From Myxococcales bacterium (GTDB lineage Bacteria; Myxococcota_A; Polyangia; Polyangiales; Polyangiaceae), in the NCBI GenBank assembly GCA_003154095.1, contig PMCK01000588.1, forward strand, positions 1 to 37,725: 37,725 bases of DNA, in the 5' to 3' direction. Positions 1,541 to 36,196 of the stretch are shown here, piece by piece (the first letter of the stretch is position 1; the number at the start of each line of letters is the position of its first letter). Under the pieces are notes generated by a model. It was not told where the DNA came from, did no database searches, and was given only the letters and a program-made list of their open reading frames with translations. The translations under genes were made by a program, and so were the position numbers.

Positions 1541-4500
1541 ATGTTAAACGACATTAAGACGAGCACTAAGTTACTATTCGGATTTGGTTTGGCCATTGCA
1601 GTCACGCTCATTATTGGAATTGTTGGGCGGCAGGCCCTTGTGACGGCAAGCGAACATATGGACGACATCGGCAAGAATCGAATGCCGAGTCTTTATGGCG
1701 TTCAAGAAATGATTGCGGGCCAGCTGCATGTGGCGGCTGGGCAACGCGGATTGGTCAATCGCCGAATGATGGAACATGGCGTGCGCCAAGGAAACTACGA
1801 CGAAATTGCCACGGGTCTTCGCCAGGCCGCAGACGGCCGAAAGGTTTACGAGGCTTTGCCCATGGCCCCGGAGGAGCAGCGCATCTGGTCGAGCTTCGTG
1901 CCTCGCTGGGACGAATGGCAACGAAATGTTCAAAGTACCGTTGATATCGAAAAGGAGAAGGATGCGCTGCTCAGCAGCGGCGCCAAGGGGGATGACCCGC
2001 GTGTCACCCAAATTGACGACAAGGCGATGGAATTCATGAGCCGCGCCCGTGACGCCCGCAGCGAATCCAACAAGGCACTTGCAGACATTGCTCGTCTCAA
2101 CAATGACTTCGGCAAAACCGCAGTTCAGCAATCCGAGGCCGCGGCATCGAAGAACATTTCGGTGATGCTGACAGCGATGTTCATTGGATCAATGATTGCC
2201 GCCGTAGTGGGGTTGTCAATTGCTCGCAGCATCAAGAACGCGCTGGACGCATTGCACCGCGAAGCCACGCGACTCGCGCAAGCTGCCGTGGCCGGACAAC
2301 TGGCAACCCGGGCCGATGTAATGGTGGTACCCGCAGAATTCCGGGGTATCGTCCAGGGTGTAAATGACACATTGGACGCTGTGATCAACCCATTGAATGT
2401 GGCTGCAGACTACGTGGACAAGATTTCCAAGGGTGATATCCCGCCCAAGATTACCGATACGTACAATGGTGACTTCAATGTAATCAAGGGCAACCTCAAT
2501 AAATGCATCGATTCACTGAGTGGGCTTCTCGGGACCATGTCCACCATGTATGAGGCCCAAAGGGCAGGAGACATCGAAGCATATGTCGACGTGACTCAAT
2601 TCCAAGGAGCCTACCGACAGCTAGCGCAGGGGGTCAACGACGGTGTCAAGTCAATCATAGACAACACCCTGACCATTTTGGACACAGTATCTTCCTACTC
2701 CGAAGGTGATTTCACGCCCGTTATGAGAAGACTGCCGGGTAAGCAGGTCGTCGCCAACGAGCGCATGGACAAATTGCGCCAGAACTTGATGGCGCTCGTC
2801 GCTGATGCCAAAGTTCTTTCAATTGCAGCAGTCGAGGGCAAATTGGCCGTTCGCGCCGATGCGTCCAAACATCAAGGCGACTACCGCAAGATCGTGCAGG
2901 GCGTCAACGAGACGCTGGATGCAGTCATTGGCCCGCTGAACGTGGCCGCCAACTATGTCGATCGGATTTCCAAAGGTGAAGTCCCCGCGAAGATTACCGA
3001 CAACTATAACGGTGACTTCAACGTCATCAAGAATAACCTGAACCAGCTCGTCAATAACCTCAATCAGCTCGTTGATGATATGGGTGTCATGTCCAAGCAA
3101 CATGATGCGGGTGACATCGACGTCAAGATCCCCGAAGAAAGATTCGAAGGCGCCTACCGCGTCATGGCCAAGGGCGTCAATGACATGGTGTTCGGCCATA
3201 TTGCCGTCAAGAAGAAGGCCATGGCCTGCCTGGCCGAGTTTGCTGCCGGCAATTTCGACGCGCCGCTCGAGAAATTCCCGGGCAAGAAGGTGTTTATCAA
3301 TGAGAACATCGAACTGTTGCGCCGAAACAGTAAGGCGCTCGTCACTGATGCCATCATGCTCTCAAAGGCTGCCGTTGAAGGGAAATTGGCTACCCGTGCC
3401 GACGCCTCAAAGCATCAGGGCGACTTCAGGAAGATCGTTCAAGGCGTCAATGAAACTTTGGACGCGGTTATCGGCCCGCTCAATGTGTCGGCTGACTACG
3501 TGGACAAGATCTCCAAGGGCAGTATCCCAGCAAAGATCACAGACACGTATAACGGTGACTTCAACACAATCAAGAACAACCTGAATCAGTGCATTGATGC
3601 GGTCAACAATATGGTTGCAGACGCGGGACTCCTTGCTAAGGCTGCCGTCGAAGGCAAGTTGGCTACCCGTGCCGATGCCTCCAAGCATCAAGGCGACTAC
3701 CGTAAAATCGTACAAGGCGTCAATGAAACACTCGACGCGGTTATCGGTCCGCTCAATGTCTCCGCTGACTATGTCGACAAGATCTCCAAGGGTAATATTC
3801 CCGAGCGAATCACCGACACGTACAATGGCGACTTCAACACTATCAAGAACAACCTGAACAAGTGCATCGACGCCGTAAACAGGATGGCTGGTGACGCCAC
3901 CATGTTGGCCAAGGCTGCTGTAGAAGGCAAGCTTGCGACCCGTGCGGACGCGACCAAACATGAAGGCGACTTTCGCAAGATCGTTCAAGGTGTCAATGAG
4001 ACGTTGGATGCAGTCATCGGTCCGCTCAATGTCTCGGCCGATTATGTGGACAAGATCTCCAGAGGCAATATTCCTCCCAAGATCACGGACAGCTACAATG
4101 GTGACTTCAATACAATCAAAAATAACCTGAACAGGTGCGTCGATGCTGTAAATTCTCTTGTAGCTGACACCGAAACACTTGTAAGGGCGTCTATTGAAGG
4201 CAAACTATCAACGCGTGCCGACGCCTCCAAGCATGAAGGCGACTACCGGAGGATTGTCGATGGTGTCAATAAGACGCTAGACGCCGTAATTGCGCCGGTC
4301 ATGGAAGCCGCAGGTGCCCTCGAAACTCTGGCACGCTACGACCTGCGAGCCCGTGTCACTGGCGATTACCAGGGCGATCACGCTCGAATCAAGGACGCCC
4401 TCAACGGTACTGCCAAGGCACTGCAAGATGCACTCAGTCAGGTGGCTGATGCGGTCGAACAGGTCTCAGAGGCATCACAGCAGATTGCAGGTTCAAGCCA

Positions 4501-5410
4501 AGCCGTGTCTCAAGGCGCTTCAGAACAGGCGAGTTCACTTGAAGAAACGTCAAGCAGCCTAGAGGAAATGGCCGGCATGACCAAGCAGAACGCCGATAAT
4601 ACGATACAGGCACGCTCGTTGGCTCAGACAACCAAGGAAGCCGCTGAAAAGGGCGGTACGGCCATGATTCGCATGACCGACGCGATGGAAAAGATCCGCG
4701 CTGCTTCCCAGGGCACGGCTGACATTATCAAGGACATCAACGAGATCGCGTTCCAAACGAATCTCTTGGCGCTCAACGCGGCGGTCGAAGCCGCCAGGGC
4801 CGGCGACGCAGGGCGTGGCTTTGCGGTGGTCGCTGAAGAAGTCCGTAACTTGGCGCTGCGCTCGAAGGAAGCAGCCAAGAAGACCGAAGACCTCATCAAG
4901 GTAGCGGTCGGTCATGCCGAGAATGGTCGAGTCATCACGAATGAAGTTGCTGGCAGTCTCACTGAGATTGTGACGGCCGCAGCCAAAGTCAACGACATCG
5001 TCAGTGAAATCGCCGTTGCCAGTCAGGAACAGTCACGTGGAATCGAGCAAGTCAACACTGCGGTTGCCGAGATGGACAAGGTCGTGCAAACCGCCGCGTC
5101 CAACGCAGAAGAGTCGTCAAGTGCGGCTGAAGAGTTGGCGAGTCAGTCTGAAGAGCTGTCTAGCCTCGTTCAGCGCTTCGAACTCGACCGGGACAACCGA
5201 ACAGCGTCACGGCGTCATGCTCCCGCCGCCAAAGAAGCCGCATCGCCACGCCGAGCTGCGATGCACCCCGCCACAATTCCGCCACCCAGGCGCGGAGCCG
5301 TTATTGTGAACCGTGCCAAGAGGCCCAACGGCGCCAACGGCACGACGCACAAACCAAGCCCCGAGGATCTAATCCCGCTAGAAAAGGACCCGGAATTCCA
5401 GGACTTTTAG
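1541..5410 (+). CDS. Transmembrane chemoreceptor (MCP) with a long tandem HAMP array and a C-terminal pentapeptide
   Basis: A 1289-aa membrane receptor. TM1 lies at about residues 11-30 and TM2 at about 206-226, bracketing a periplasmic region of about 175 residues that looks like a four-helix bundle. Residues of about 240-965 form a chain of HAMP-type modules with recurring [24 protein letters not shown] and DKISKG..P.KITD elements. Units begin 543 bp apart at first (2282, 2825, 3368) and then exactly 273 bp apart (3368, 3641, 3914, 4187). The signalling hairpin has its tip around residues 1065-1105 ([21 protein letters not shown]). A basic, proline-rich linker then runs to the final EFQDF, which fits the aromatic pentapeptide pattern used to tether CheR/CheB. 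cheR starts just downstream. The ligand cannot be read from the sequence. Confidence 0.95.
3368..4186 (+). repeat. Three exact-length 273-bp in-frame tandem repeats coding HAMP modules
   Basis: Units start at 3368, 3641 and 3914, and a partly diverged fourth starts at 4187. Each encodes 91 residues beginning [12 protein letters not shown]. Earlier related units start at 2282 and 2825 with twice-length spacing (543 bp, 181 codons). Neighbouring copies are nearly identical in protein but differ at many third codon positions, so they are old duplications under protein-level constraint rather than an assembly artefact. Confidence 0.9.
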
Positions 5411-5485
5411 CCAGCCCAAACAAGCGAGAAGCCCGTGGGCGACCGAAGAAATCCGAGGTCGCCCACAGCCCTTGCAGAGATTGTG

Positions 5486-6355
5486 ATGCTTAACGTGGAT
5501 GCGCAGCTGTTTCAAAGATTCTGTGACATTGCTTATTCAAGAGCAGGTATCAAGCTGCGCGACGGCAAAGAGGCACTTGTTTCAGCCAGGGTCGCCAAGC
5601 GCCTCCGAGCGCTACACCTTTCGAGCCCCAGCGAGTACTTGGCATTTCTTGAGGGAGATGCGTCGGGCAATGAGGTAGTCTCCTTCCTGGATGCCATCTC
5701 GACGAACTTTACGACATTCTTTCGTGAGCCCGATCACTTCAAACGCCTAGAAGAGTTCGTCGATTACAGGCTTAGTCAGGGCAAAAAGCGGCTTCGCGTA
5801 TGGTGCGCCGCATCGAGCAGCGGGGAGGAGCCTTATACACTGGCCATGACTCTTGCCGAAATGTTGGGCGATAGCCCCGTAGATTGGCGCATTTTGGCCA
5901 CGGACATTTCCACCAAGATTCTTGCAATGGCGGAAGCAGGCACGTACGACGAACCAGCACTCAAGGATGTGCCGCGGGCCCTGCTCTCGAAATACTTTAG
6001 GGCTACGGATTCACGACGCTCCAGCAATCGACGCTGGCAGGTCACAGACGAACTGCGTCGCAAAGTCGTCTTCAAGCGACTCAACCTGGCAAAACCCCCT
6101 TACCCAATGCCGGGCCCGCTGGACGTTGTATTCTGTCGGAATGTGATGATCTATTTCGATGATCCGGTAAGGCAGGGACTATTTACCGAGGTAGATCGGT
6201 TGCTGGCGGATGATGGTCTTGTCTGCATTGGCCACTCGGAGTCCCTTTCCGGGCTAAAGACCAAGCTGTCGATTATTGAACCTTCAGTTTACCAGCCCCA
6301 AGGGACTGTATCTCCATTGACAACGAGCAGGGCCGCCAAACGGATGCGCCGATGA
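5486..6355 (+). CDS. cheR: Chemoreceptor methyltransferase CheR
   Basis: An S-adenosylmethionine-dependent methyltransferase that methylates receptor glutamates. It is 289 aa from the ATG at 5486. An in-frame GTG at 5435 would give 306 aa, but the ATG start places the first helix (LFQRF) where the cluster III CheR has it. The N-terminal helical domain is followed by the SAM-binding motif CAASSSGEEPYTLAM, then ATDIST and FCRNVMIYFDDP. In the beta-subdomain, the stretch between KYF and the DEL motif (RATDSRRSSN..) is unusually basic and glycine-free. It differs from both other CheR loops in this window, so pentapeptide binding cannot be predicted. It sits between the multi-HAMP receptor and cheD, and its likely substrate is that receptor. 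Confidence 0.95.
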   Translation: MLNVDAQLFQRFCDIAYSRAGIKLRDGKEALVSARVAKRLRALHLSSPSEYLAFLEGDASGNEVVSFLDAISTNFTTFFREPDHFKRLEEFVDYRLSQGKKRLRVWCAASSSGEEPYTLAMTLAEMLGDSPVDWRILATDISTKILAMAEAGTYDEPALKDVPRALLSKYFRATDSRRSSNRRWQVTDELRRKVVFKRLNLAKPPYPMPGPLDVVFCRNVMIYFDDPVRQGLFTEVDRLLADDGLVCIGHSESLSGLKTKLSIIEPSVYQPQGTVSPLTTSRAAKRMRR

Positions 6356-6358
6356 AAG

Positions 6359-6844
6359 GTGAATGTGCGTCGAGTCGTCGTAGATATTGCGGATTTCGTG
6401 GTGAGTAAGGACTTGGACGTCACGTTGACAACCTATGCCCTGGGCTCCTGCATTGCCGTCATTTTGCATGATGCTGTGATTCCAGCAGCGGGGATGATTC
6501 ACTACATGTTGCCGCTGTCCTCGACGAATCCCGAGAAAGCCAAGCTCAAACCGGCCATGTTCGCCGATACCGGGGTGCCGCAGCTATTTCATGCGATGTA
6601 TGGCCTAGGTTGCAAGAAAGAAAACCTGGTTGTCAAAGTGGCGGGTGGTGGCCAGTTGTATGACGATCAGGGAATTTTCGAAATTGGTAAGCGCAATTAC
6701 ACGGTACTAAGGCGCATGCTTTGGAAGACCAACGTCCTCGTGGCGGCCGAAGAGGTAGGAGGCGCCAAGTCACGCACCGTTCATCTCGAAGTCGCAACGG
6801 GTCGTTGTGTAATACGTTCCGGAGATTTGGAGCAAGAGCTGTGA
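6359..6844 (+). CDS. cheD: Chemoreceptor glutamine deamidase CheD
   Basis: A 161-aa CheD that deamidates receptor glutamines. The catalytic cysteine lies in YALGSCIAV and the catalytic histidine 17 residues later in GMIHYMLP. A threonine lies six residues before the cysteine, as in active family members. VAGGGQLY and the C-terminal HLEVATGRCVIR strand complete the fold. The start could be GTG 6359, or GTG 6365 two codons later, which is better spaced from aaaggtga. It begins 3 bp after the cheR stop, and its TGA overlaps the next gene's GTG (GTGA at 6841-6844), so the genes are translationally coupled. In Bacillus-type systems CheD also partners a CheC/CheX-type phosphatase, and a cheX lies two genes downstream. 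Confidence 0.94.
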   Translation: MNVRRVVVDIADFVVSKDLDVTLTTYALGSCIAVILHDAVIPAAGMIHYMLPLSSTNPEKAKLKPAMFADTGVPQLFHAMYGLGCKKENLVVKVAGGGQLYDDQGIFEIGKRNYTVLRRMLWKTNVLVAAEEVGGAKSRTVHLEVATGRCVIRSGDLEQEL

Positions 6845-10926: not shown

Positions 10927-11502
10927 TTAAGCTTGGTGAAGCCGCACCTTGATTTTGCCCGTGTCTGTGGCGTACGTCAAAGTGCGACCGAGAGTACCTC
11001 CAATGTTTTGGTGGGATACTAGAATGCCATGGCGCTCCAACGTCTTGCGGGCTATATCCACGTTCTGGTAACCGACAGACCGGTTTGGGTCGAACCCGCG
11101 CAAGACGTTCGCCCCGCCAATGAGCGAAGCCGTAATCTCATGCTTCGGAACCTGCAGGAACGCTAATGACCTGAGCATAAGTTCGATGCAACAGGTGACG
11201 AATGTGAATTGATTCGAGTCGGACGTTTGACGAAGGCAAGGATGAATACAGGACACGTTGCAGGGTTCAACTGCGTCCATGGGGGAGGGCAACCGCGCGT
11301 GGCAGATGGCGGAGACTTGCATACGTGGAGCGAACAAGATCACAGAGACACAGGACCCAAGGACGGTCCACACAAGGCTGGGTTGTGCCCCAATGTGAAC
11401 GGCACCTACGCCTAGCCTGATCTTCGTGCGATCTCCTTGATGAGCGCATGTTGACTGATCATTGATTGCAATTAGAGAGCGTTCTGGCAGCCCGTTGGTC
11501 AT
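10927..11502 (-). CDS. cheD: Second chemoreceptor glutamine deamidase CheD
   Basis: A 191-aa CheD on the minus strand. The catalytic Cys is in VLGSCVSV and the catalytic His 17 residues later in ICHARLP. IGGANVL and GYQNVDIARKTLERHGI match the family, and the C-terminus has the usual GR.L.Y...TGKIKVRL pattern. The residue six before the cysteine, where a catalytic threonine is expected, is Trp, with Thr one place later. This may be a local shift rather than loss of function. The N-terminus is about 30 residues longer than usual, so a later start is possible. It is divergent from cheB at 11637 across 134 bp. It may serve the cluster II array, whose own CheD-like domain is degenerate. Confidence 0.9.
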   Translation of the reverse strand: MTNGLPERSLIAINDQSTCAHQGDRTKIRLGVGAVHIGAQPSLVWTVLGSCVSVILFAPRMQVSAICHARLPSPMDAVEPCNVSCIHPCLRQTSDSNQFTFVTCCIELMLRSLAFLQVPKHEITASLIGGANVLRGFDPNRSVGYQNVDIARKTLERHGILVSHQNIGGTLGRTLTYATDTGKIKVRLHQA

Positions 11503-11636: not shown

Positions 11637-12686
11637 ATGTCGAATCAACGAAAAAAAGTCCTGATTGTTGACGATTCTGCCATCATTCGTCAACTGCTGA
11701 GCCAAGTCTTGGGTAGCGCTGCGGACCTTGAAGTCGTCGGCGTGGCGCCAGATCCCTATGTAGCCTGGGAGAAAATCAAATCGCTGTCACCAGACGTATT
11801 GACGCTCGACGTCGAGATGCCACGAATGGATGGCGTGACGTTTCTAGAGCGCCTTATGAAGTTGCACCCGATGCCTGTCGTTATGGTATCTTCGCTAACT
11901 GAGGAGGGCTGCGCCACTACGCTGCGTGCGCTTGAATTAGGAGCATTTGACTTCGTTGCCAAACCCAAAGTGGACATTCGTGCGGGCACGCTGGAACTGG
12001 CGGACTCGATACTGGAAAAGGTTCGAGCAGCGGCACACAGCAAACCCAAAGCCCCGAAGGCGAGACGATCGATTCGCGCGACTCCCGTAAAGGCGCCGAT
12101 TGGCGCGATGCTCAAGACGACCCACCGGATCGTTGCTGTGGGTGCCTCGACGGGCGGAACCGAAGCCATCCGCGAGATTCTTATTCGCCTGCCGGCCGAT
12201 GCCCCGCCCATCGTAATCGTTCAGCATATGCCTCCAGGTTTTACGCGCGCATTTGCAGCGCGACTTGACTCAATGACGGCGGTGAGAGTCAAGGAAGCCG
12301 AAGACGGTGACCGACTATTTCCGGGCCGGGTGCTGATTGCACCGGGTGACTACCACATGGCGCTGCGACGCAGCGGGGCCGACTACAGCGTGCGAGTATT
12401 TTCATCTGAACGAGTCAACCACCATCGTCCATCGGTGGATGTTCTGTTCGATTCGTGTGCGGCTTGCGCCGGAGCCAACGTTGTCGGTGTTATCCTAACC
12501 GGCATGGGCAGTGACGGGGCAAAAGGGATGGCCAATATGCACACAAAAGGCGCGCATACCCTGGCCCAAGACGAGGACTCTTGCATTGTCTTCGGAATGC
12601 CGCGCGAGGCCGTCGCGCTCGGTGCGGCTGACGAAATCCTTCCACTTGGGCGCATTCCAATGGCCATTTTGCAGGCCTGTGCCTAG
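11637..12686 (+). CDS. cheB: Receptor methylesterase/deamidase CheB
   Basis: A 349-aa CheB. The receiver occupies residues 7-125 (IVDDSAI, acceptor Asp in [14 protein letters not shown], Lys in VAKP). A basic linker (about 135-160) leads to the esterase domain, with catalytic Ser in VGASTGG, His in VQHMPPGF and Asp in LTGMGSDGAKG. Among the window's CheBs the receiver is most like that of 8570 by eye. It is the only rightward gene beside the leftward cluster II operon. It converges with the CheZ-like gene (35-bp gap) and diverges from cheD, so its expression is uncoupled from the operon that encodes its presumed kinase. It is the only CheB near cluster II, so it most likely serves that array. 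Confidence 0.95.
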   Translation: MSNQRKKVLIVDDSAIIRQLLSQVLGSAADLEVVGVAPDPYVAWEKIKSLSPDVLTLDVEMPRMDGVTFLERLMKLHPMPVVMVSSLTEEGCATTLRALELGAFDFVAKPKVDIRAGTLELADSILEKVRAAAHSKPKAPKARRSIRATPVKAPIGAMLKTTHRIVAVGASTGGTEAIREILIRLPADAPPIVIVQHMPPGFTRAFAARLDSMTAVRVKEAEDGDRLFPGRVLIAPGDYHMALRRSGADYSVRVFSSERVNHHRPSVDVLFDSCAACAGANVVGVILTGMGSDGAKGMANMHTKGAHTLAQDEDSCIVFGMPREAVALGAADEILPLGRIPMAILQACA

Positions 12687-12721: not shown

Positions 12722-13690
12722 CTAGAAGAGTTCGATATCTCCTGCTTCCAGACACGTCTGCTGCACGGCGACGGCTCGAATGGTCGAACGGCTACGCTCG
12801 AATTCATCCGTAAATGCCCAAAGCTCGCGGTTGTCGACGTTGGCTGTTGCCCACTCTACCGTTTGCGTGGTGAATGGCTCAAGAATATTCACGCGAGAGA
12901 CGCTAAGTTGGCTCAATTGTCCAACCAGATCCCCGAATTGCAGGCCGCGCACGCAAAGATTGATGCCCTGTTGAATGGACACCCCGATACCCTGCGCGGC
13001 ACGCAATTGCTCTGCCAGTTCTTGATTGAGGCCGTCCACTTTATTGCGCAACGTAGTAGTTGCATCACGCGCGTCATTCACAAATTTACTGTCGTCCGTA
13101 ACTGCGGCTTTGGCATCCGATGCTACCGCGCCGACGGCATCGCGAATTTCTTCCACGTTGGCGTCCATTCGAGTGCTTACGCCACCAAATTGCATCGCTA
13201 GTTCTTTCACCGCTGCCGCGACCACCGCGAAACCTCGCCCTGCCTCGCCGGCGCGGCTTGCCTCGATTGAGGCGTTCAGTGCTAGAAACCGAATTTGCTC
13301 GGCGCTATTTCTTACCGCGTGCGAGAGCTTGTCCAGTTCGCCGAGCACCGGCAACGTTGCGTCGAGCCGCGTCGCCAAACCAATAGTCCGATCATTGGCG
13401 TGCTCGAGCCCGCGAAGCACTTTCTCCATGAGGTGCTGACTGTCGTCGACGAATCTCGCAACTGTGCCAGTCCCGGCTGATGGGTCATCCACGGAACGCA
13501 GTGTCTTCTCTAGCAACGTCTGCTGCGTATGACTCTGAGTGGATATCTGTTCAAAGCCATCACTCAGCTTGGTTACGGCGTCTAGCACAATGTCCCGCAC
13601 CTGTCCTACATGCTGGCGAATTGCAGCTAACTCATCGAGGACGGCCAAGTCCAATCCAGTACAAATGCCTGACTTGGCTGATTCGGTCAT
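12722..13690 (-). CDS. Soluble MCP-like protein with a CheZ-like DxxxQ motif and acidic-aromatic C-terminal tail
   Basis: A 322-aa cytoplasmic protein with no membrane segments. Residues of about 125-170 form an MCP-type hairpin tip (EQIRFLALNASIEASRAGEAGRG), so it could enter receptor arrays. Downstream of the second helix, residues 248-260 read RGLQFGDLVGQLS. This matches the CheZ active-site helix pattern F-x-D-L-x-G-Q, with Asp254 and Gln258 in the positions of the CheZ catalytic Asp/Gln. The protein ends GDIELF, an acidic-aromatic tail comparable to the CheY-P-binding tail of CheZ. My reading is a receptor-derived CheY-P phosphatase, because cluster II has a cheY but no cheX. The start overlaps the upstream cheR-cheD stop (ATGA, 13687-13690). 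It is the last gene of the operon. The function is inferred, not shown. Confidence 0.8.
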   Translation of the reverse strand: MTESAKSGICTGLDLAVLDELAAIRQHVGQVRDIVLDAVTKLSDGFEQISTQSHTQQTLLEKTLRSVDDPSAGTGTVARFVDDSQHLMEKVLRGLEHANDRTIGLATRLDATLPVLGELDKLSHAVRNSAEQIRFLALNASIEASRAGEAGRGFAVVAAAVKELAMQFGGVSTRMDANVEEIRDAVGAVASDAKAAVTDDSKFVNDARDATTTLRNKVDGLNQELAEQLRAAQGIGVSIQQGINLCVRGLQFGDLVGQLSQLSVSRVNILEPFTTQTVEWATANVDNRELWAFTDEFERSRSTIRAVAVQQTCLEAGDIELF

Positions 13691-15093
13691 GGGTTCCTTT
13701 CGCGTCCAGCAGTGAGCTTGCCCAATTCTCGGGATTGCGGCGCAAAAGGCCGACCGTCCTCCGTGTTCGCTCGAACAAGAACACGACCCGTGGCAAGCTC
13801 TAATCTAAAATCGGCGGTCTCTTCGAACACACGTTGGGCCGTGACGGCAATGGACGCTTTTTCAAGCCAGTCGTTGACAACGGATAGCAGCGTCTGGCAA
13901 TCAATCTTTTCGCTCTTAGCGCTAGTTGTGCGGGTCGCGACCAACTTGGCTTCAATTGAGGAGCGAGCAGAAGCATTGGCCTGCAATTCGCGCACCATGG
14001 CCCGAAGTATTGACGTTACGGCGCGTGCCCCTCCGGCGTTCGAACAATTTTGCAGAAAGTGTGCGGCACAACTTCGCTGCGCGTCTCTGTTCACCAGTAC
14101 CGTAACGACACCAGCACCCACGGTCATCGTTGCCCAGCCTTCCGAACCGCTCAAGAACTGCCCACGCTTCGACCCGAAATCAGAATCCAGCGATACCGCC
14201 GCCTGCAGCCGCGGGACGGATGCATGGGCTGTGTCGCTACTATAACCACTCGGGCGATACACAGTATGTGCCACGGGTTCCAAATGTAGAGTTATCCCCG
14301 TTAGGCCCTCTGAATGGCCCAGAAACAGCAGCCCGTGCGGTGCCAGCAAGCCGCAGGCGCGCTGAACCACTTCCAACTGGGTCGGCTTATCGAAATAGAT
14401 CAACACGTTGCGACAGAATATTATGTCGAGAGGCTTCTTGATGGCCCAGCCACGCTTGGCTAAATTTAGCTGCTGGAACTGAACACGAGCGCGAAGCTCA
14501 GGACGCACTCGATAAACTTCCTTGTGTGGGCCCTTGCCGCGTAGGAAGATACTGCGGCGCCAAGCGTCGGACAATGTGGCGATGTCGGATTCGTGATAAA
14601 CTGCGGCTTCGGCTTCCTGGAGCACAGCGGTATCCAGATCAGTGGCAGTAATCGACGTCCTATTCCATTCCGCCCGCGACACACTTGCCTTGACGACCGC
14701 CGCGATGGTGTAGGGCTCTTCGCCGGTGGAGGATGCAGCACACCAAATTCGTAAGCCTCGCAGCCGCGCACTCTTGACGCCTTCTTCCGAAGAGTTAAGC
14801 CAATCTTCCAAAATCTTGAAGTGATGAGGCTCACGGAAGAATTCGGTCTTATTGGTGGTAATTGCATTTACCAATGCCTGCAGCTCGGTGCCGGTAGGGT
14901 CATTGCGTGTGACTCGATTGTAGTACTCCGTGAATGAACGGAGCCCCAGGGCATTGAGCCGTCGATTCAATCTCGAAACCAGCAGAATCTTCTTTTCCTG
15001 CGAAAGCGCAATGCCTGCAACATTGTAGATGAGCGTCTTGAGAGACACCCACTCGGCGTGGCTAATCGAGGGTAAGCCATTGGCCGCGGGCAA
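13687..15093 (-). CDS. cheR: CheR methyltransferase fused to a CheD-like domain lacking the catalytic cysteine
   Basis: A 468-aa protein. Residues 1-282 are a complete CheR: CAASSTGEEPYTIAA SAM motif, FCRNVLIYFD, and a beta-subdomain loop FLRGKGPHKEVYRV close to the enterobacterial pentapeptide-binding loop. Residues of about 315-445 follow the CheD fold. TVGAGVVTVLVNRD aligns with the LGSC strand, AAHFL holds the conserved His exactly 17 residues on, and LELATGRVLVR matches the closing strand. The catalytic Cys position is Gly328, and the GGA turn is replaced by VATRT. Thr322 and His345 are retained. It is therefore a probable non-catalytic CheD domain, perhaps for partner binding. TTG at 15093 is the only plausible start before the first helix, with a weak ribosome site. 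It lies 29 bp after the MCP stop and overlaps the next gene by 4 bp. Confidence 0.9.
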   Translation of the reverse strand: MPAANGLPSISHAEWVSLKTLIYNVAGIALSQEKKILLVSRLNRRLNALGLRSFTEYYNRVTRNDPTGTELQALVNAITTNKTEFFREPHHFKILEDWLNSSEEGVKSARLRGLRIWCAASSTGEEPYTIAAVVKASVSRAEWNRTSITATDLDTAVLQEAEAAVYHESDIATLSDAWRRSIFLRGKGPHKEVYRVRPELRARVQFQQLNLAKRGWAIKKPLDIIFCRNVLIYFDKPTQLEVVQRACGLLAPHGLLFLGHSEGLTGITLHLEPVAHTVYRPSGYSSDTAHASVPRLQAAVSLDSDFGSKRGQFLSGSEGWATMTVGAGVVTVLVNRDAQRSCAAHFLQNCSNAGGARAVTSILRAMVRELQANASARSSIEAKLVATRTTSAKSEKIDCQTLLSVVNDWLEKASIAVTAQRVFEETADFRLELATGRVLVRANTEDGRPFAPQSRELGKLTAGRERNP

Positions 15094-15122: not shown

Positions 15123-16775
15123 CTAGAACTCCTCGAATACCGTGTCAAGCTCACTCGGAGTCGCTCCAGAAAGGCCGGAACCGTTGGTGCCGTGTCTGAT
15201 TCCTGGCGTCGGCCGTATCGTCGCGGGTTCGTGTTCGACCTCAAAAGCTGTATGCTTAGCGGCTTGCTTCACGGGACTGCGTCGTGTCGTGCGCGCGCCG
15301 TTGGAAGGCGCCTTCGGACGCCTGCGGGCTGAAGTGTTGCTCGACATGGCTGCGTCCGAGCTGTCTCGCGTTATATGAAATTTCGCCACGACATTGAGTA
15401 ATTGGCGACCTTGTTGCGATAGTTCTTCGGCAGTACCAGAGAGCTCTTCGGTCTGGGCCGCGTTAGTCTGAGTGACCTGGTCCATTTGCGTTACAGCCGT
15501 ATTTACCTGGTCAATGCCGGTGGACTGTTCACGCGAAGCGGCCGCAATCTCTCCTACAAAGTCCGTGACGCGCTTGACGGAACCCAAAATTTGCTGCAAT
15601 GCCTCGCCGGAAGTCTCGACCAACTTGTAGCCAGCCTCGACCTTGCTCACCGAGTCTTCTATCAGTGATTTTACTTCCTTGGCCGCGGCAGCACTGCGTT
15701 GCGCCAGGTTGCGGACTTCAGAGGCTACGACGGCAAACCCTCGACCTTGCTCACCGGCTCGCGCGGCCTCCACTGCCGCATTGAGAGCCAACAGGTTCGT
15801 CTGAAATGCAATTTCGTCAATAGTCGTCGTGATGTCCGCGATGCGCTTTGACGATTGGTTTACTTCTTTCATGGCGGAAACGGCGTCGGCCACGATGCGC
15901 CCGCCCTTTTCGGCCACTTCGCGCGACGCACTCGCCAATTGTGCTGCTTGCTGGGCACTGTCGGAAGTCTGTTTGACGGCCGAAGTAATTTCCTCTAGCG
16001 TCGAAGCGGTTTCCTCGATGCTTGCAGCCTGTTCCTGCGCGCCGCTGGCTATGGCTTCAGAGGACGCGGACAGCTCTTGCGAAGCGGCGGCAACCGACTC
16101 GGCAATCCTTGCCGTCTCGACCAGGGCTTTTCCGAACCAATTGGCGAAAAATACACCGATCAATAAGCCCAACGCCGACGATACGCCAATTAGGACGAAC
16201 GACAGATTGCGTGCGCGAGCGTAGGTGTTAAGTGCGTTGGTTCGAAGTTGCTCGCCCACCGTCTCTTTGCTCTTGCAGAGTTCTGAAATGAGCTCGTCAG
16301 CCTTGAGTCCCTGGGGAACTGAAGCTGCGAGCAAGTCCAACGCCTCCTTCTTCTTACCCTGAAGGCTGAGGTTGGCCACTTCCTTGGCACCCACGACATA
16401 AGCGTCAAGCGCCGTGCGGGCCGCGCTGGCTATGCGCCGTGCGTCATCCGTAACAACGGACTTGTCCACCCGATCCATGGCGTTACGCATGCGCTCATAA
16501 GTAGTCTCGATCCGCTGTTGCGATTGATGAATTGCCTCAGGGGTTGTGTCAAGAATTGACTGGCGCACGGTTCGCGCAATGACCCACATGTCCACGTCAG
16601 CCTCGCGCGCAGCGGCGAGGCCGAGAAAGCCGCGATTAAACAGCGAGTCAATCTCGTCATTCAACCCGCTGGCGTTGGATAGACCAACGTATCCCACGAC
16701 CGTAGTAAATGACGTTATGAGTAGAAATCCAAGGATCAATTTGACTTTAGCACTGAGATTCTGAAACCATTCCAT
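15123..16775 (-). CDS. Transmembrane chemoreceptor (MCP), 4HB-type sensor, C-terminal VFEEF
   Basis: A 550-aa receptor. TM1 is at about residues 12-31. A four-helix-bundle-like periplasmic domain spans about 32-189, and TM2 about 190-213 ([19 protein letters not shown]). A recognisable HAMP domain is missing: within about 10 residues of TM2 the sequence is already coiled-coil signalling helix. The tip is near 315-355 ([21 protein letters not shown]). The tail after about 470 is basic and proline/alanine-rich and ends VFEEF, an x-aromatic-x-x-aromatic pentapeptide of the CheR/CheB-tether type. The cheR immediately downstream (29 bp) has the matching loop type, so the pair probably works together. 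The ligand is unknown. Confidence 0.94.
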
Positions 16776-16824: not shown

Positions 16825-17322
16825 TTAGGTCGAGACAATGTTGGCCTCCAACCCAAGCAGCTGGTCGAGATTCAAGAGCAAGACAATTTCCTCGCCCCGC
16901 TGAACCATACCGGTAATAAAAGTCGTATCGACGTGTCCGCCCAAGTCCGGGGGTGGCGCAATGTCCGTCGGCGCTACGTCGAGTACGTCGGAAACCGCAT
17001 CCACGACGAGCCCCAAAACACGCGTGCCGACAAGAACCACAATAATAACGGTAAATCGATTGAAAGTGGACTCGCCGAGGCCAAATCGCATCCTGAGATC
17101 GACCACGGGAACGATGGTGCCCCGCAAATTCATGACTCCGCGAATGTGCTCTGGAGCACTCGGGATGGGTGTTATTGGTGTCAGCCCGCGAATTTCCTGC
17201 ACGCGCAGAATCTCCAGAGCAAACAACTCATCATGTAGTTTGAATGCCAAGAACTGATGGATCGGCTCCGCCGACGTGGCGGCTGGCTTTGCCATGCTTA
17301 GTGAAATTGCCGTTTGAGTCAT
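16825..17322 (-). CDS. cheW: Coupling protein CheW
   Basis: A 165-aa single-domain CheW. Typical segments are HDELFALEILRVQEIRG, HIRGVMNLRGTIVPVVDLR, GLVVDAVSDVLDV and FITGMVQRGEEIVLLLNLDQLL. An AGGGA ribosome site lies about 8 nt before the ATG. It sits between cheA (40-bp gap) and the MCP in the leftward cluster II operon and is presumably the adaptor for those two. There are no extra domains. Confidence 0.96.
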   Translation of the reverse strand: MTQTAISLSMAKPAATSAEPIHQFLAFKLHDELFALEILRVQEIRGLTPITPIPSAPEHIRGVMNLRGTIVPVVDLRMRFGLGESTFNRFTVIIVVLVGTRVLGLVVDAVSDVLDVAPTDIAPPPDLGGHVDTTFITGMVQRGEEIVLLLNLDQLLGLEANIVST

Positions 17323-17362: not shown

Positions 17363-19339
17363 TCATGCCGCGTCCGCCTTAGTCTGTGGGGCCGTCAGGC
17401 GGGCCGTTCTCACAAGTCCGGGAATATCCAAAATGAGCGACACCTGTCCGTCGCCAAGAATCGTCGCGCCCAGAACGCCGTCAATTCGCTGGTAGTGTGC
17501 TTCCAAGCTTTTCAACACGACCTGAGCCTGTCCGAGAAGCGTGTCAACGACGAGCCCAACCCGGTTGCCATCCGATTCCACCACGACAACCAGTGCGCGT
17601 GTTGGGTCTACCGTGGCACCCGCGATTCCAAATAGTTCATGCAATCGTAGCAGCGGCAACGCTTGACCGCGCACAATGATCAGCTCACCACGGCCCATAA
17701 CGTGTTTGTATTCAGCGGCGCTAGGCCGAAGCGATTCAGTAACGGCAAGTAGCGGCACGATGAACCGCTGTGAAGCAACGCCCACCGTTAGCCCGTCGAG
17801 AATTGCAAGAGTCAGCGGAAGTTTAATCCGGAACGCGGTACCCTGGCCCGGCCGGGTCGTAACTGCAATAGTGCCGTTCAATGCGTCTATTGTTCGCTTC
17901 ACTACGTCCATACCGACGCCGCGCCCAGAAACGTCACTTACGGTTTCTGCCGTTGAAAAACCGGGTTCGAAAATCAGGGCTTGTATTTGTTCATCGCTCA
18001 CTGAATCAGTGGGCCGCAGTAACCCAACGGCCTCCGCCTTATGGCGAATTCGCGCGGTGTCGAGACCACGACCATCATCCCCGAGCTCAATGACAATGCC
18101 GCCGGCCGCATGTTGCGCTGACAGCCTTAGATTGCCCAGCGCAGGCTTGCCCTGGCTAAGGCGCTCGGCCGCCGTTTCTAGGCCGTGATCCAATGCGTTG
18201 CGCACTAAATGCGTCAGCGGATCGGACAAGCGTTCGACGACACCCTTGTCGAGCTCGGTATCTTCTCCTTCGATCGTGATTGCAACCTCTTTGCCCATCG
18301 TGGCCGCCAAATCCCGGACAATTCGAGGAAACCTGCCGAAAACCGTGCTGACGGGCACCATGCGAATTGCCATGACTCGCGCCTGCAAATCCTGGGTATT
18401 GTTTTCGAGAGCCGACACGGCGTCCTGCAGCGCTGAATGTTGGGCCGCGTTCAACGAATTCATCAATTGCTTGACCATCGATTGAGCAATCACAATTTCG
18501 CCCACCAGGTCGATGAGTGCATCCACCTTTTCCGTGGATACGCGCAGTGTCGAGCCTGCCGAGTGCTGTGGCAAATGTTCGACCGCACTGGCAACGTCGC
18601 GTGAGGCGGCGCGTCTTTCGACGGGGGAGCTTTCGTCCTCCGACAGCGTGATGCGGCAAACCTCCTCGACAAACAGGAATACATCGCGAATCTTTTCGTC
18701 CGAGACGTCGGTGACCAAAATCGATGTGAAAGACAGATAGCACTTCTCGGGGTCCATTATTTCGAGCGCGGGCAGCCTGGCAAGGTCGGCCGCTACCCCC
18801 TCGAGTGAACCCAGTGAAGCCAGATCCCTAAAGATTAACAGCGGATCAAGCCCGGTGATGAAGAACTCGGGAGTAGGAGACAAGCTGACTCGTATTCGAC
18901 GATGAGCCTTGGAAGCTGCTGGGGTCACGGCGGCACGTTCGACGACGACCGGAGAAACTTCAGCGGTTTGCTCGAGTTTCAGTACTAGATTCGCAATCTC
19001 GGCGGACGGCGGTTCTTTCGAGTCAATCGTGTCAAGTAGTTCTCGCAGCGCGTCAACGGACTTTAGTAGCAGCGAGACACGTTCGGTGGTTGCCGATAAA
19101 TTGCCTCGGCGCATCCGGTCCAGGAGTGTTTCCAAGGCATGTGTAAAGTCAGCGATATTTCCAAACCCGAGACTGCCAGCGGCGCCCTTGATGGAGTGCG
19201 CCGCGCGAAATATTGCGTGAAGCGCTTCGCTGTCCTGCGGCGTACTCTCGAGGACCAATAGGCCATGTTCCAGAGTGGCGATGTGCTCCGTCGCCTCCTC
19301 TAGGAATGATTGCCGAAATACCGAAAGATCAATCTTCAT
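17363..19339 (-). CDS. cheA: Chemotaxis histidine kinase CheA, with P2-like domain
   Basis: A complete 658-aa CheA. P1 Hpt spans 1-115 with phospho-acceptor His48 in AAHSIKG. Residues of about 143-235 are a P2-like domain (RRIRVSLSPTPEFF.., two strand-helix-strand halves) that would dock CheY or CheB. P3 dimerisation is at about 262-330 (VDALIDLVGEIVIAQSMV). The ATPase domain has N box RNALDHG near 378, G1 DDGRG, F box GFSTA, G2 GRGVGMDVV near 470 and GQGTAF. P5 runs to the end. Together with the cheY (9-bp gap) and STAS gene upstream and cheW downstream, it forms a compact leftward operon. It retains P2, unlike the cluster III kinase, so the two should differ in how they recruit response regulators. 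Confidence 0.96.
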   Translation of the reverse strand: MKIDLSVFRQSFLEEATEHIATLEHGLLVLESTPQDSEALHAIFRAAHSIKGAAGSLGFGNIADFTHALETLLDRMRRGNLSATTERVSLLLKSVDALRELLDTIDSKEPPSAEIANLVLKLEQTAEVSPVVVERAAVTPAASKAHRRIRVSLSPTPEFFITGLDPLLIFRDLASLGSLEGVAADLARLPALEIMDPEKCYLSFTSILVTDVSDEKIRDVFLFVEEVCRITLSEDESSPVERRAASRDVASAVEHLPQHSAGSTLRVSTEKVDALIDLVGEIVIAQSMVKQLMNSLNAAQHSALQDAVSALENNTQDLQARVMAIRMVPVSTVFGRFPRIVRDLAATMGKEVAITIEGEDTELDKGVVERLSDPLTHLVRNALDHGLETAAERLSQGKPALGNLRLSAQHAAGGIVIELGDDGRGLDTARIRHKAEAVGLLRPTDSVSDEQIQALIFEPGFSTAETVSDVSGRGVGMDVVKRTIDALNGTIAVTTRPGQGTAFRIKLPLTLAILDGLTVGVASQRFIVPLLAVTESLRPSAAEYKHVMGRGELIIVRGQALPLLRLHELFGIAGATVDPTRALVVVVESDGNRVGLVVDTLLGQAQVVLKSLEAHYQRIDGVLGATILGDGQVSLILDIPGLVRTARLTAPQTKADAA

Positions 19340-19348
19340 GAGCCAGCC

Positions 19349-19714
19349 TCAACGAACGACTTTAGAAACGACCGCCAACAGCTTTTCGGGGTCGAAGGGT
19401 TTGACTAGCCAACCGGTTGCTCCCGCGGCTTTGCCCTCCTGCTTTCTCGATTCTTGCGATTCCGTAGTAAGCATCAGAATCGGCGTGAACTTATGCGCGC
19501 TGTTCTTTCGCGCGGCACGAATGAAACCGACGCCGTCCAGTTCAGGCATGTTTAGGTCGGTAATGACCAGTTGAAAGGTCTTCTTCTCGAGCTCGCCGAG
19601 CCCGAGTTTCCCATCGGCAGCTTCCGTTGTCTCAAAGCCCGCCTGTCGCAACGTGAACGCCACCATTTGACGCATGGTTGGGGAATCATCGACGATAAGA
19701 GCAAATTTCGGCAT
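19349..19714 (-). CDS. cheY: Single-domain response regulator CheY
   Basis: A 121-aa stand-alone receiver. The acidic pair is Asp9/Asp10 (IVDDSPT), the phospho-acceptor Asp53 (ITDLNMPELDG), a Thr lies in LMLTTES, and the conserved Lys is in LVKPFDPEKL. It is 9 bp upstream of cheA and follows the STAS gene in the same operon, the usual arrangement of STAS-cheY-cheA-cheW modules. No output domain is attached, so it must act by binding a motor or another partner not encoded here. Its phosphatase may be the CheZ-like gene at the operon's end. Confidence 0.95.
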   Translation of the reverse strand: MPKFALIVDDSPTMRQMVAFTLRQAGFETTEAADGKLGLGELEKKTFQLVITDLNMPELDGVGFIRAARKNSAHKFTPILMLTTESQESRKQEGKAAGATGWLVKPFDPEKLLAVVSKVVR

Positions 19715-32205: not shown

Positions 32206-32330
32206 CGATGTGTGGTCGAGATGCGTCAAGCAATTGCCAGTGTGATTGGGTCTTATTCAGCCCCATCGAACGGTCGCAAATGCACGCGACACCCTGCGCG
32301 CTGTTGCAACGGAATCATATAGGAGCAATC

Positions 32331-34313
32331 ATGACCACCACAAGCAATCTTTCAACAAACGGTAAACGTAGACCTGGCGACCGAGCTTTAGCTGCTCCCA
32401 AGGACAACGCGAGCAAACAAGACGTCACGGCTACCGTAGGAGCTGACATCCAACAAGATCGTTTGGCAGCACGTCGCATGGCGGAGGAAAAGGTCCGCGC
32501 CCGCACGTTGGCACGCTCTCAGGCCGTTGCCGAAAAGCTTGCCTCTGCAACTTCACAGGTTTCGTCCGCAATTACCGAGGCATCCGGCGCGATTCACGAA
32601 CTCGAAAAGACGATGCAACAGATCGCGACCGGTGCCAACGAAGCGGCGTCCGCAGCCGAGGAATCACGTTCGGCGGTCAACCAGATTGAGAAATCTGCAA
32701 TAATGGCGGCGAAAAACGCCGACGTATCTATGAAGTCGGTCAACGCCCTGCAAGAACTGGCAAAAGAGACCTCCAACGACATTGCGAAACTAATTCAAGG
32801 GGTTGGCGAAAGCGCCCAAGCCAACATCGAATCTGCCAGTAAACTTGCGGAGCTCGAAAAGCTTTCGGACGAAATCGGCAAGATCGTGCATGCGGTAGCC
32901 CGCATTGCGGATCAGACCAACTTACTGGCCCTCAATGCTGCCATCGAGGCGGCACGAGCAGGTGAACATGGCAAGGGTTTTGCCGTAGTAGCTGACGAAG
33001 TGCGCAACCTCGCAGAGTTGAGCGAAAAGAGCGCACGTGGCATTCAAGAGGTGATAAACGAAATTCAAGGCCAGGTGAAGGTAGTCGCTGCCGACACCGA
33101 AATGGCAGGCCGCAAGGCAGCCGAAGAAGTCGAAAAGGCCAAGGTTATCACCCGCGACCTCGAACAGGTTGGGCGCGAAATGAGTGAAATCCAGAAGGCC
33201 TGCGAAGTCATTGGTGTCAATGCGAGCCAGTCTGCCAGTGGGGCCAAAGAATACCTCGCCGGAGCTGAGCAGATTGCGTCGGCGGCCGAAGAGGCTTCTT
33301 CCGCCTGTGAAGAATCACTGCGCTCAGTGCAGGAGCAATCCAAAGCCTACAACGAGATGTCAGACGCTGCCAGTTCCATGTCTGAGCTAGCAGAGGATCT
33401 TAAGACCTCGACCAACGCGCAGAAATCTGCGGAAGAACTAGCGGCTTCAGCCGAGGAGCTCTCAACCAACTCCGATGAGGTGAAGGCGTCCGCGAGCCAG
33501 ATCGCAACGGCCATTGAGCAGATTCAAAAGGCTGCCGGGATTCAGGGCAAATTGGCCGAAAAATCGCGCGACCTTGGGCAGCAGCTGCAACTTGCGACCC
33601 GCGGCATGGCCGATCGAGCTACTGAGAGTACGGAAAAGGGCAATCGGATCAAGGACGTTCTTACCACGAACAAAGTCAACGTGGACGCAGTTATTGCCAA
33701 CGTTAACGCAGCTGCCCAAGCTGCCGTGACCTCTGCCAAAAACGTAAAGGAACTCGAGGAACGGACGCGACGCATCGACAAAATTGTCGACGCCATCGTC
33801 ATGGTGACGGTTCAAACCAACATGCTTGCCGTCAACGGCAACGTCGAAGCGGCGCGTGCCGGTGAGTACGGCCGTGGCTTTTCCGTGGTGGCAGGCGACA
33901 TCCGTGCTCTGTCCAATGAAAGCAGCGAAAACGCTGACCGGATCAAGGATCTGGTGCGCCAAGTCCAGTCCCAGATCACCAAGGTGGCGGCTGACATTGA
34001 GCTCGCCGGGAAAACTGCCCTGGCTGAAGGAGAGCGAGCCAAGGTTTCCACTGAGAATCTGACACGTATCGCAATTGACGTGGACAAGGCGCTAGTCGCT
34101 ATTCAAGAAGTCATGACGGGGGCGCAGGAGTCGGCAACGGCGATTGAGCAAGCCGGCAAGGCTGCAGAACAGATCGGCGCGGCTGCGCAACAGATGTCCC
34201 GTTCCACCATCGAGGGCGCCAGCGCCGCCGAAGAGGCGGCCAAAGCCGCCCAAGAAATTGCACAAGCCATCGAAGAGATTGCCTCACAAGCCGACGACCT
34301 GCAACACGGTTGA
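32331..34313 (+). CDS. Soluble chemoreceptor with two signalling tips in one chain
   Basis: A 660-aa cytoplasmic protein from the ATG at 32331 (AGGAG six nt upstream; the 41 codons upstream in frame are not used). After a basic disordered N-terminus (about 1-50) it is almost entirely long coiled coil, with no PAS, HAMP or membrane segment. Two MCP hairpin tips are present about 300 residues apart. Tip 1, residues 187-222, is canonical ([20 protein letters not shown]). Tip 2, residues 486-522, is modified ([20 protein letters not shown]). The helices before and after each tip repeat QAA/SAAEEA-type methylation-like runs. A single chain could thus contribute two signalling hairpins, one perhaps with altered kinase control. 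The triple-CheW gene begins 29 bp later and is a likely partner. Confidence 0.92.
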
Positions 34314-34342
34314 TGCCACGGAGCAATTCAGGAGAATTTACC

Positions 34343-36196
34343 ATGGCAAATGCAAATGTGCTCGCGAGCGAGCAACTGGAAGAAAGTCAACTCGTTACCT
34401 TTTACTTAGGTAACGAGGAGTTCGGATTCGACATCATGTCCGTGCAAGAAATCATCAGACAGCCCACGCTGTCGAGGATCCCGATGGCCCCCGAATACGT
34501 CGAAGGTATCGCCAATCTGCGCGGAACTGTCCTGCCCATCATCGACACGCGAACTCGCTTCGGCATGAAGCGAGAGGCCGATACGGACCATACCCGGGTA
34601 CTGGTCGTGGACGTGGACGGCGTAAAGACGGGCCTGCGCGTCGATCGTGTTCGTCAGGTCACGCGGATCACGCGAGGCGACATCGAGGCGTCCCCAGCCG
34701 TTATCAAGAACGGAATGAGCACCGACTACTTGCAGGGAGTCGTCAAGCTCGAACAAGGCAAGCGAATTATCATGTCCCTTAGCCCGGCGGCCATCTGCAA
34801 GATTGAATCGAAGGGCGCGCTGAACCAAGCCATTCAATCTTCCCATCTCGAACTTGCGGGTGCAAGCGAGACGAAGACGGCAAAGTCTGGGGATTCCAGT
34901 GATCAGACATTGGCCCAATTAGTGTCGTTCAAGCTTGGCGACGAAGAGTTTGCGTTTCCCATGGAACGGGTGCGTGAAATTCTTCGCGTCCAGCGGCCCA
35001 ACGAAGTTCCCGATACGCCCAAGCACTTCCTGGGCATTCTTACGGTACGTGGAAACATCCTGCCAGTCATCGATCTCCGGCTATTGCTGAACCTCAGTGA
35101 CATGGCGGGCGACGTCGAGAGTTTGGCTCAAAATGCGTACGATACCTACGCGCGCTGGTTGACAGCGATGCCAAGCTACGTTGAAGAATCAGGCAACCAC
35201 ACCGCACTAGTGCAAGGCGCCGAAGCATTGCGGACCTGGGTAGCTGCGTTTGCAACCTCAAGTGAGCTCCTCATGGGTACGCTGGGCGCCATTCGATTGG
35301 CCAATGACAAGGTACTGCGGGCCATTCAGCAATTGCAAACCTGCAACAACCGTGAGGCGAGGCTTGCAAATTGCAAACAGGAAGTCGAGCCGCATGCTCA
35401 AGAGGCTCTACGCCAAATGCTTACGTTCAAGCAGCAAGTGCGTGAATGCATCCGTGAAGACCAGCGGCTGATTGTCGTACAGACGGGGAGCGCCCTGCTC
35501 GCCTTGCTAGTCGATCAGGTCAAGGAGGTTTTGACCGTACCAACGCGACTCATCGATCCACCGCCACAACTGGGTAGTCAGAAAAATCTAGAAATTCAGG
35601 GAGTGGCGCGGCTCAATGATGGCAAGCGACTGATCATGCTCTTGGACTCCGATCATCTGGTAGAAGGGCAAACCAAGGAAGCCCTGAAAAAGGCCGGAGC
35701 CCTTGGAACGGTTGTAGAGGCAGCCGGCCTCGACTTGAAGCACGCACAAGAGTCGGCAAGTTCCCTCGGCGAACGTCAATTCGTGACATTCCAGCTCGCC
35801 GATGGCGAATACGGAATTCCAATCAACGAGATTCAAGAAATTGACCGCTCCTCGCGGATGACCCGCATTCCCAAGTCCGCCGAACATGTCGACGGAATTA
35901 CCAACCTTCGAGGCGAGGTAGTCCCAGTTATCAATGCTCGCAAGCGCTTCAATCTTCCCATGAAGGAAACCGACGAGCGGACGCGCGTTATCATCATTGA
36001 CGTGGACGGGAAGAAGACCGGGCTGTTGGTGGATTCGGTCCGGGAAGTCCTTAACCTAGCGACCAAAGACATCGCTCCGCCCCCGGCCACCATCTCCTCC
36101 GCGATAGACCAGCAGTACATCTCCGGAATCGGAAAGGTGGACAGCGGCAAACGCATGATCGTCCTACTCAATGTAACCAAGGTCGTCGAAAGCTGA
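34343..36196 (+). CDS. cheW: Triple-CheW scaffold protein with a helical insert in the second CheW domain
   Basis: A 617-aa protein from the ATG at 34343 (AGGAGA eight nt upstream); an ATG at 34310 overlaps the MCP stop but has no such site. CheW domain 1 is at about 15-153, domain 2 at 192-442, and domain 3 at 477-614. Each has the VREI/VQEI, LRG..LPVID and LLVD.V.EVL signatures. Domain 2 is split after VIDLRLLLNL by a helix-rich insert of about 120 residues (253-373), then resumes with RLIVVQTGSALLALLVD. The insert has the spacing of a CZB (chemoreceptor zinc-binding) domain: YARWL, LRTWV and ANDKVLRAI in place of H..W, C.LG.W and H..vH. The zinc-binding His and Cys residues are replaced. 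The likely role is a multivalent adaptor linking several receptor or CheA P5 domains. Confidence 0.92.
   Translation: MANANVLASEQLEESQLVTFYLGNEEFGFDIMSVQEIIRQPTLSRIPMAPEYVEGIANLRGTVLPIIDTRTRFGMKREADTDHTRVLVVDVDGVKTGLRVDRVRQVTRITRGDIEASPAVIKNGMSTDYLQGVVKLEQGKRIIMSLSPAAICKIESKGALNQAIQSSHLELAGASETKTAKSGDSSDQTLAQLVSFKLGDEEFAFPMERVREILRVQRPNEVPDTPKHFLGILTVRGNILPVIDLRLLLNLSDMAGDVESLAQNAYDTYARWLTAMPSYVEESGNHTALVQGAEALRTWVAAFATSSELLMGTLGAIRLANDKVLRAIQQLQTCNNREARLANCKQEVEPHAQEALRQMLTFKQQVRECIREDQRLIVVQTGSALLALLVDQVKEVLTVPTRLIDPPPQLGSQKNLEIQGVARLNDGKRLIMLLDSDHLVEGQTKEALKKAGALGTVVEAAGLDLKHAQESASSLGERQFVTFQLADGEYGIPINEIQEIDRSSRMTRIPKSAEHVDGITNLRGEVVPVINARKRFNLPMKETDERTRVIIIDVDGKKTGLLVDSVREVLNLATKDIAPPPATISSAIDQQYISGIGKVDSGKRMIVLLNVTKVVES

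Follow-up and report, generated by a model that had tools for sequence, protein, structure and literature searches.

A CheR methyltransferase fused to a CheD domain without an active site in a Myxococcales bacterium

The gene at 13687-15093 (minus strand), here called cheR-psi-cheD, encodes a 468-aa protein in which a CheR methyltransferase is followed by a CheD-derived domain that has lost its active site and kept its fold. It lies in a 37,725-nt window, the whole stretch of DNA analysed, from a Myxococcales metagenome-assembled genome (MAG) of 714 contigs, the only genome from which this dead form is known. The degenerate domain very probably derives from an intact CheR-CheD fusion of a kind found in three genomes of the same phylum.

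cheR-psi-cheD and its chemosensory cluster

cheR-psi-cheD has a TTG start, and its match in its own genome runs in a single frame with no internal stops. Pfam identified CheR_N (1.5e-13) and SAM-binding CheR (2.2e-54) at residues 17-277 (14263-15045, minus strand). The nearest solved structure to this half is Salmonella CheR (1BC5), matched over the full CheR domain (E 2e-59), and in the alignment R87, D152 and Y233 correspond to the catalytic residues R98, D154 and Y235. Tether-binding features are also present, R195 being the equivalent of Salmonella R197 and the RGKG loop (RGKGPH) that of RGTG. The residue roles in CheR, including those of the longer beta-loop of the RGTG type and R197 in pentapeptide binding, are taken from published work (PMC5907407). 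The CheR half is predicted to be an active methyltransferase for receptor glutamates. The first-pass annotation had described a dead CheD on an active CheR; the lost CheD cysteine and the intact CheR catalytic residues agree with this, methyltransferase activity itself being what we infer from those residues.

Several other genes of cluster II lie on the minus strand: cheY (19349-19714), cheA (17363-19339) and cheW (16825-17322), recognised by sequence and by matches in the operons of relatives, and an MCP gene (15123-16775) recognised by sequence. Next to cheR-psi-cheD, a gene at 12722-13690 (minus strand) encodes a soluble 322-aa protein with an MCP signal domain (Pfam MCPsignal), and its ATG overlaps the cheR-psi-cheD stop by 4 bases (ATGA). 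cheB is divergent (11637-12686, plus strand; Pfam CheB_methylest, 1.6e-67). The CheZ phosphatase motif is DLTGQ; the 12722-13690 protein contains GDLVGQ, terminates in DIELF and, judging from these motifs, may be a CheZ-like phosphatase.

A CheD-derived domain follows CheR

Beyond CheR_N and CheR, Pfam gave no credible match in the C-terminal part of the protein and no TPR match after CheR. We built an HMM from 127 CheDs, leaving the cheR-psi-cheD protein out. Residues 285-468 scored 18.9 bits (E 4e-8 for one sequence) in a near end-to-end alignment (model positions 37-171 of 177), whereas the best of 1000 shuffles reached 6.9 bits and the reversed sequence 3.8. Among the 297 reading frames of the window, only two intact CheDs and the cheR-psi-cheD ORF passed, the latter with an E-value of 1.1e-4 (next frame, 0.07). 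NCBIfam gave a weak colinear CheD match (residues 329-442, E 0.098). The domain scores below the Pfam and NCBIfam cut-offs and matches the 127-CheD HMM over its full length, and no other family gave a better profile match to the C-terminal part.

An AlphaFold model of the domain guided by an alignment of 61 CheDs had a pLDDT of 83 and a pTM of 0.81, and the only PDB matches found by Foldseek at E < 0.001 were to T. maritima CheD (2F9Z; TM 0.64-0.68). The model made from the single sequence was uninformative (pLDDT 37), so the guided model is not independent of the CheD alignment, whereas the sequence test is. The resemblance to CheD of about residues 315-445, proposed from the sequence alone, was thus upheld by the profile search and, in the guided model, by the overlay on CheD. 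Based on the HMM, the shuffles, a table of conserved columns, the model and Foldseek, the degenerate domain was assigned to residues 321-445 (13759-14133, minus strand). A linker of about residues 286-320 (14134-14238, minus strand) aligns poorly with the intact fusions and the model begins there with low pLDDT.

That the resemblance is due to chance, the C-terminal part being another domain or disordered, would fit the missing Pfam CheD match and the poor single-sequence model, but is hardly credible given the gap between real and shuffled scores, a position equal to that of the intact CheD in the fusions, and 2F9Z alone passing the Foldseek threshold.

The active site is lost and the core is kept

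Gly328 (codon at 14110-14112, minus strand) occupies the position of the catalytic Cys, as seen in the column table and a residue check, whereas the catalytic His is kept as His345, exactly 17 residues further on. Of about 20 columns conserved in at least 80% of CheDs, only four are kept (Gly326, His345, Lys383 and Gly436). The GG turns, Asn and Arg, each conserved at 87-100% per column in CheDs, are replaced by SC, AT, Leu and a gap, and a conserved Pro near the active site is also gone. The GGA turn has become ATR. Specifically, GGASMF of 2F9Z corresponds to ATRTTS, with loss of the CheC-binding Met-Phe; in B. subtilis CheD, M101 and F102 bind CheC. The hydrophobic core tells a different story, with 30 of 37 core columns kept versus 10 of 40 polar ones, a difference reached in none of 100000 permutations.

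The residue check confirmed the earlier reading of Gly328, the lost GGA turn, the His 17 residues on and the closing ATGRVLVR strand. A Thr six residues before the active site had also been listed as shared with intact CheDs. Thr322 does stand there, but the neighbouring CheD and the intact fusions have their Thr at position -5 relative to the Cys, which is Met323 in cheR-psi-cheD.

An assembly or sequencing error that makes an intact CheD look dead might be suspected in a fragmented MAG, but it is extremely improbable, as about 16 of the 20 highly conserved columns are altered by scattered substitutions within one open frame with coding signal. The other frames of the same DNA gave no CheD match, so the domain is not a frameshift artefact.

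Standalone CheDs without the catalytic Cys were observed in the same family at L140:1186-1785 (plus strand) and L133:1495-2136 (minus strand), with GSG and GSS. Both have their other CheD motifs intact, and one has cheA- and cheY-like ORFs next to it. In this family, dead CheDs may be a recurrent feature.

Intact CheR-CheD fusions in relatives

CheR fused to an intact CheD was found in three genomes, G002 and G053 from the same family and G272 from the same phylum, in each case inside a chemosensory cluster. The gene orders are cheY-cheA-cheW-mcp-cheRD in G002, where the contig stops just past cheRD, cheA-cheW-mcp-cheRD-cheB in G272, and cheA-cheW-cheRD-cheB with a divergent mcp in G053. The intact CheD stands at the same position after CheR as the CheD-like domain does here, and the two are 14-20% identical. 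The first-pass annotation had suggested looking for the same domain order and the same residue 328 in other genomes: the order recurred in these three, whereas their CheDs keep the Cys.

In the CheR tree, the CheR domain of the window protein was sister to that of the G002 fusion (support 96/89), and the tree improved when all four fusions were held as one clade. In the CheD tree, the three intact fused CheD domains formed one clade (100/96). The dead domain had a CheD branch of about 7.5-7.9 versus 0.99 for the G002 CheD, the figure of 7.9 exceeding what the model can measure and meaning only 'very long'. The CheD tree therefore cannot place the dead domain, whose origin is deduced from the CheR half; there the branch was 1.08 versus 0.79 for the sister G002. 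The simplest history is one fusion, after which the CheD active site was lost in the window lineage, and the faster change in the CheD half than in the CheR half supports it. The sister position of CheR to the G002 fusion, together with the fusions in relatives, makes the protein a decayed lineage within a small family of fusions.

Used alone as a query, the C-terminal domain found zero relatives among 84,980 genomes and, besides its own match, only noise in 108 genomes of the family. A full-length relative was also absent from plasmid records, and a fusion search in the class of G272 returned G272 alone. A scan with the fusion alignment (80 loci kept) found many loci with cheR and cheD side by side and none with the two fused; adjacent yet separate cheR and cheD genes occur in many other phyla. 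In a Spirochaetes MAG, three cheD ORFs lie around one cheR (L187:4521-7494). Because the dead form is known from a single genome, a ratio of silent to replacement changes is not computable.

A probable receptor tether and a second CheD

In CheR-binding pentapeptides, positions 2 and 5 are aromatic, with acidic residues nearby (PMC7390727). The cluster II MCP terminates in VFEEF, which fits this rule with Phe at position 2, where Trp is commoner, and the receptors of related fusion clusters terminate in GFEEF or GFELF. Judging from these termini, the receptor's own tether probably brings CheR to the receptor. With VFEEF on the receptor and tether-binding features on CheR, docking does not require the dead domain.

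A separate cheD gene beside the same cluster had been described as encoding an active enzyme. This gene (10927-11502, minus strand) encodes a standalone protein of 191 aa, CheD2 (Pfam CheD, 67.6 bits), which has both the Cys (C51) and the His (H68) and falls outside the clade of fused CheDs; CheD2 is a candidate supplier of deamidase activity. The other intact CheD of the window, CheD1 of cluster I (6359-6844, plus strand; Pfam CheD, 99 bits), has C31 and H48 and is separate from its CheR.

The window also encodes a 1289-aa MCP (1541-5410, plus strand) with at least seven tandem HAMP_2 units and the terminal pentapeptide EFQDF. The CheR of its cluster (5435-6355) is without the RGxG loop, and the fusion CheR might serve this MCP. 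Additionally, a protein at 34310-36196 (plus strand) has several CheW-like stretches in one chain; the MCP-like protein next to it (32208-34313) has two stretches resembling the signalling tip.

Possible role of the degenerate domain

As a tentative explanation, adjacent cheR and cheD genes would have fused into a bifunctional CheR-CheD enzyme, the ancestor of cheR-psi-cheD. The CheD half would then have lost its deamidase, with the Cys, both GG turns, the Asn, the Arg and the grip on CheC, and retained its fold. CheR would still be active, recruited by the C-terminal pentapeptide of the receptor, while deamidation would have been taken over by the separate CheD2 together with CheB. The leftover CheD domain would be a non-enzymatic C-terminal appendage that most likely limits or steers the choice of receptor methylation sites, as the FrzF TPR domain does in Myxococcus. 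The FrzF analogy involves an unrelated domain, and contact of the appendage with CheR or the receptor is a proposal. It is rather doubtful that the protein is a chemotaxis pseudoenzyme in the sense that its CheD fold, once fused, gave up catalysis and took on built-in regulation of the attached CheR; if true, a two-step receptor-modifying enzyme would have become a self-regulated methyltransferase.

The domain could instead be a passive relic that has drifted since CheD2 and CheB covered deamidation, its frame maintained only by the need to keep the overlapping downstream gene coupled, which a stop would break. The extreme branch of the CheD domain, the loss of nearly all invariant residues, the second CheD nearby and the dead form's occurrence in only one genome are all consistent with such drift, and the ATGA overlap with the downstream gene alone could protect the frame. 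Mutation without selection was simulated on the intact fusion CheDs down to identities of 40, 30 and 25%. At 40%, 106 of 450 simulated sequences still scored as high as the real domain, which makes the test less stringent in the case of recent decay; at 25%, none of 450 reached 18.9 bits and 10 of 450 were without a stop. The real domain, unlike these neutrally drifted sequences, keeps its core and a near full-length colinear profile match at 14-20% identity. Selection on the CheD-like fold is likely without being proven, since some of the divergence accumulated on the other branches, and we regard a passive relic as somewhat unlikely.

The first-pass annotation had suggested a binding role, in which the dead domain contacts the receptor or CheC/CheX, either docking CheR or serving as a decoy for active CheD. 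In B. subtilis, CheD binding outweighs deamidase activity (PMC3513319), which keeps binding models alive, and the invariant His and the fold are retained here. CheX-like genes also lie close by. However, the domain has lost both the CheC-binding Met-Phe and the conserved surroundings of the active site, and the genome has no clear CheC, the only candidate being a match of 22.3 bits over 21 positions within a CheX-like protein. CheR and the receptor already hold a tether pair as well. Docking or decoy action through a CheD surface is therefore not supported and quite unlikely. Taken together, the tether, the cover by CheD2 and CheB and the FrzF precedent favour the regulatory appendage over a relic, and a relic over docking or a decoy.

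Comparison with known systems

Both domain families are well known, whereas the dead, CheR-fused form of CheD is seen in one genome. In the open-access literature we found no description of CheR-CheD fusions, live or dead, in line with the earlier statement that no described CheR-pseudoCheD enzyme was known. A protein whose CheD enzyme is gone and whose CheD fold is still on CheR would separate the catalytic and binding roles of CheD, and this is testable by removal of the domain.

The CheR half resembles Salmonella CheR (1BC5) in its full CheR domain, catalytic residues, R197 equivalent and RGxG loop, and differs in that the Salmonella enzyme is without a C-terminal domain. The C-terminal half resembles the CheD deamidase (PF03975, 2F9Z) in predicted fold, order of strands and helices, His, Lys and closing strand; unlike 2F9Z, it is fused to CheR and has lost the Cys, GG turns, Asn, Arg and Met-Phe.

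FrzF of Myxococcus xanthus, probably from the same phylum, also joins CheR to a C-terminal non-catalytic domain, and in FrzF this domain restricts CheR to one site (PMC2535941). The appended domain of FrzF is TPR and not CheD, and regulation is shown for FrzF whereas for cheR-psi-cheD it is what we infer. M. xanthus is itself without CheD (PMC3945109).

The closest counterparts are the intact fusions of G002, G053 and G272, apparently still working double enzymes in which one polypeptide both methylates and deamidates the same receptor. They share with cheR-psi-cheD the domain order, an operon with cheA and cheW and the same CheR clade. They differ in that their CheD keeps Cys and His, and in that the stretches read of their clusters showed no standalone cheD, whereas the window has CheD2. 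They also carry a C-terminal tail (VTLF at L146:169-1830, minus strand, and L145:9227-10840, plus strand; ITFFGAA at L144:8950-11010, minus strand) that is missing from the window protein.
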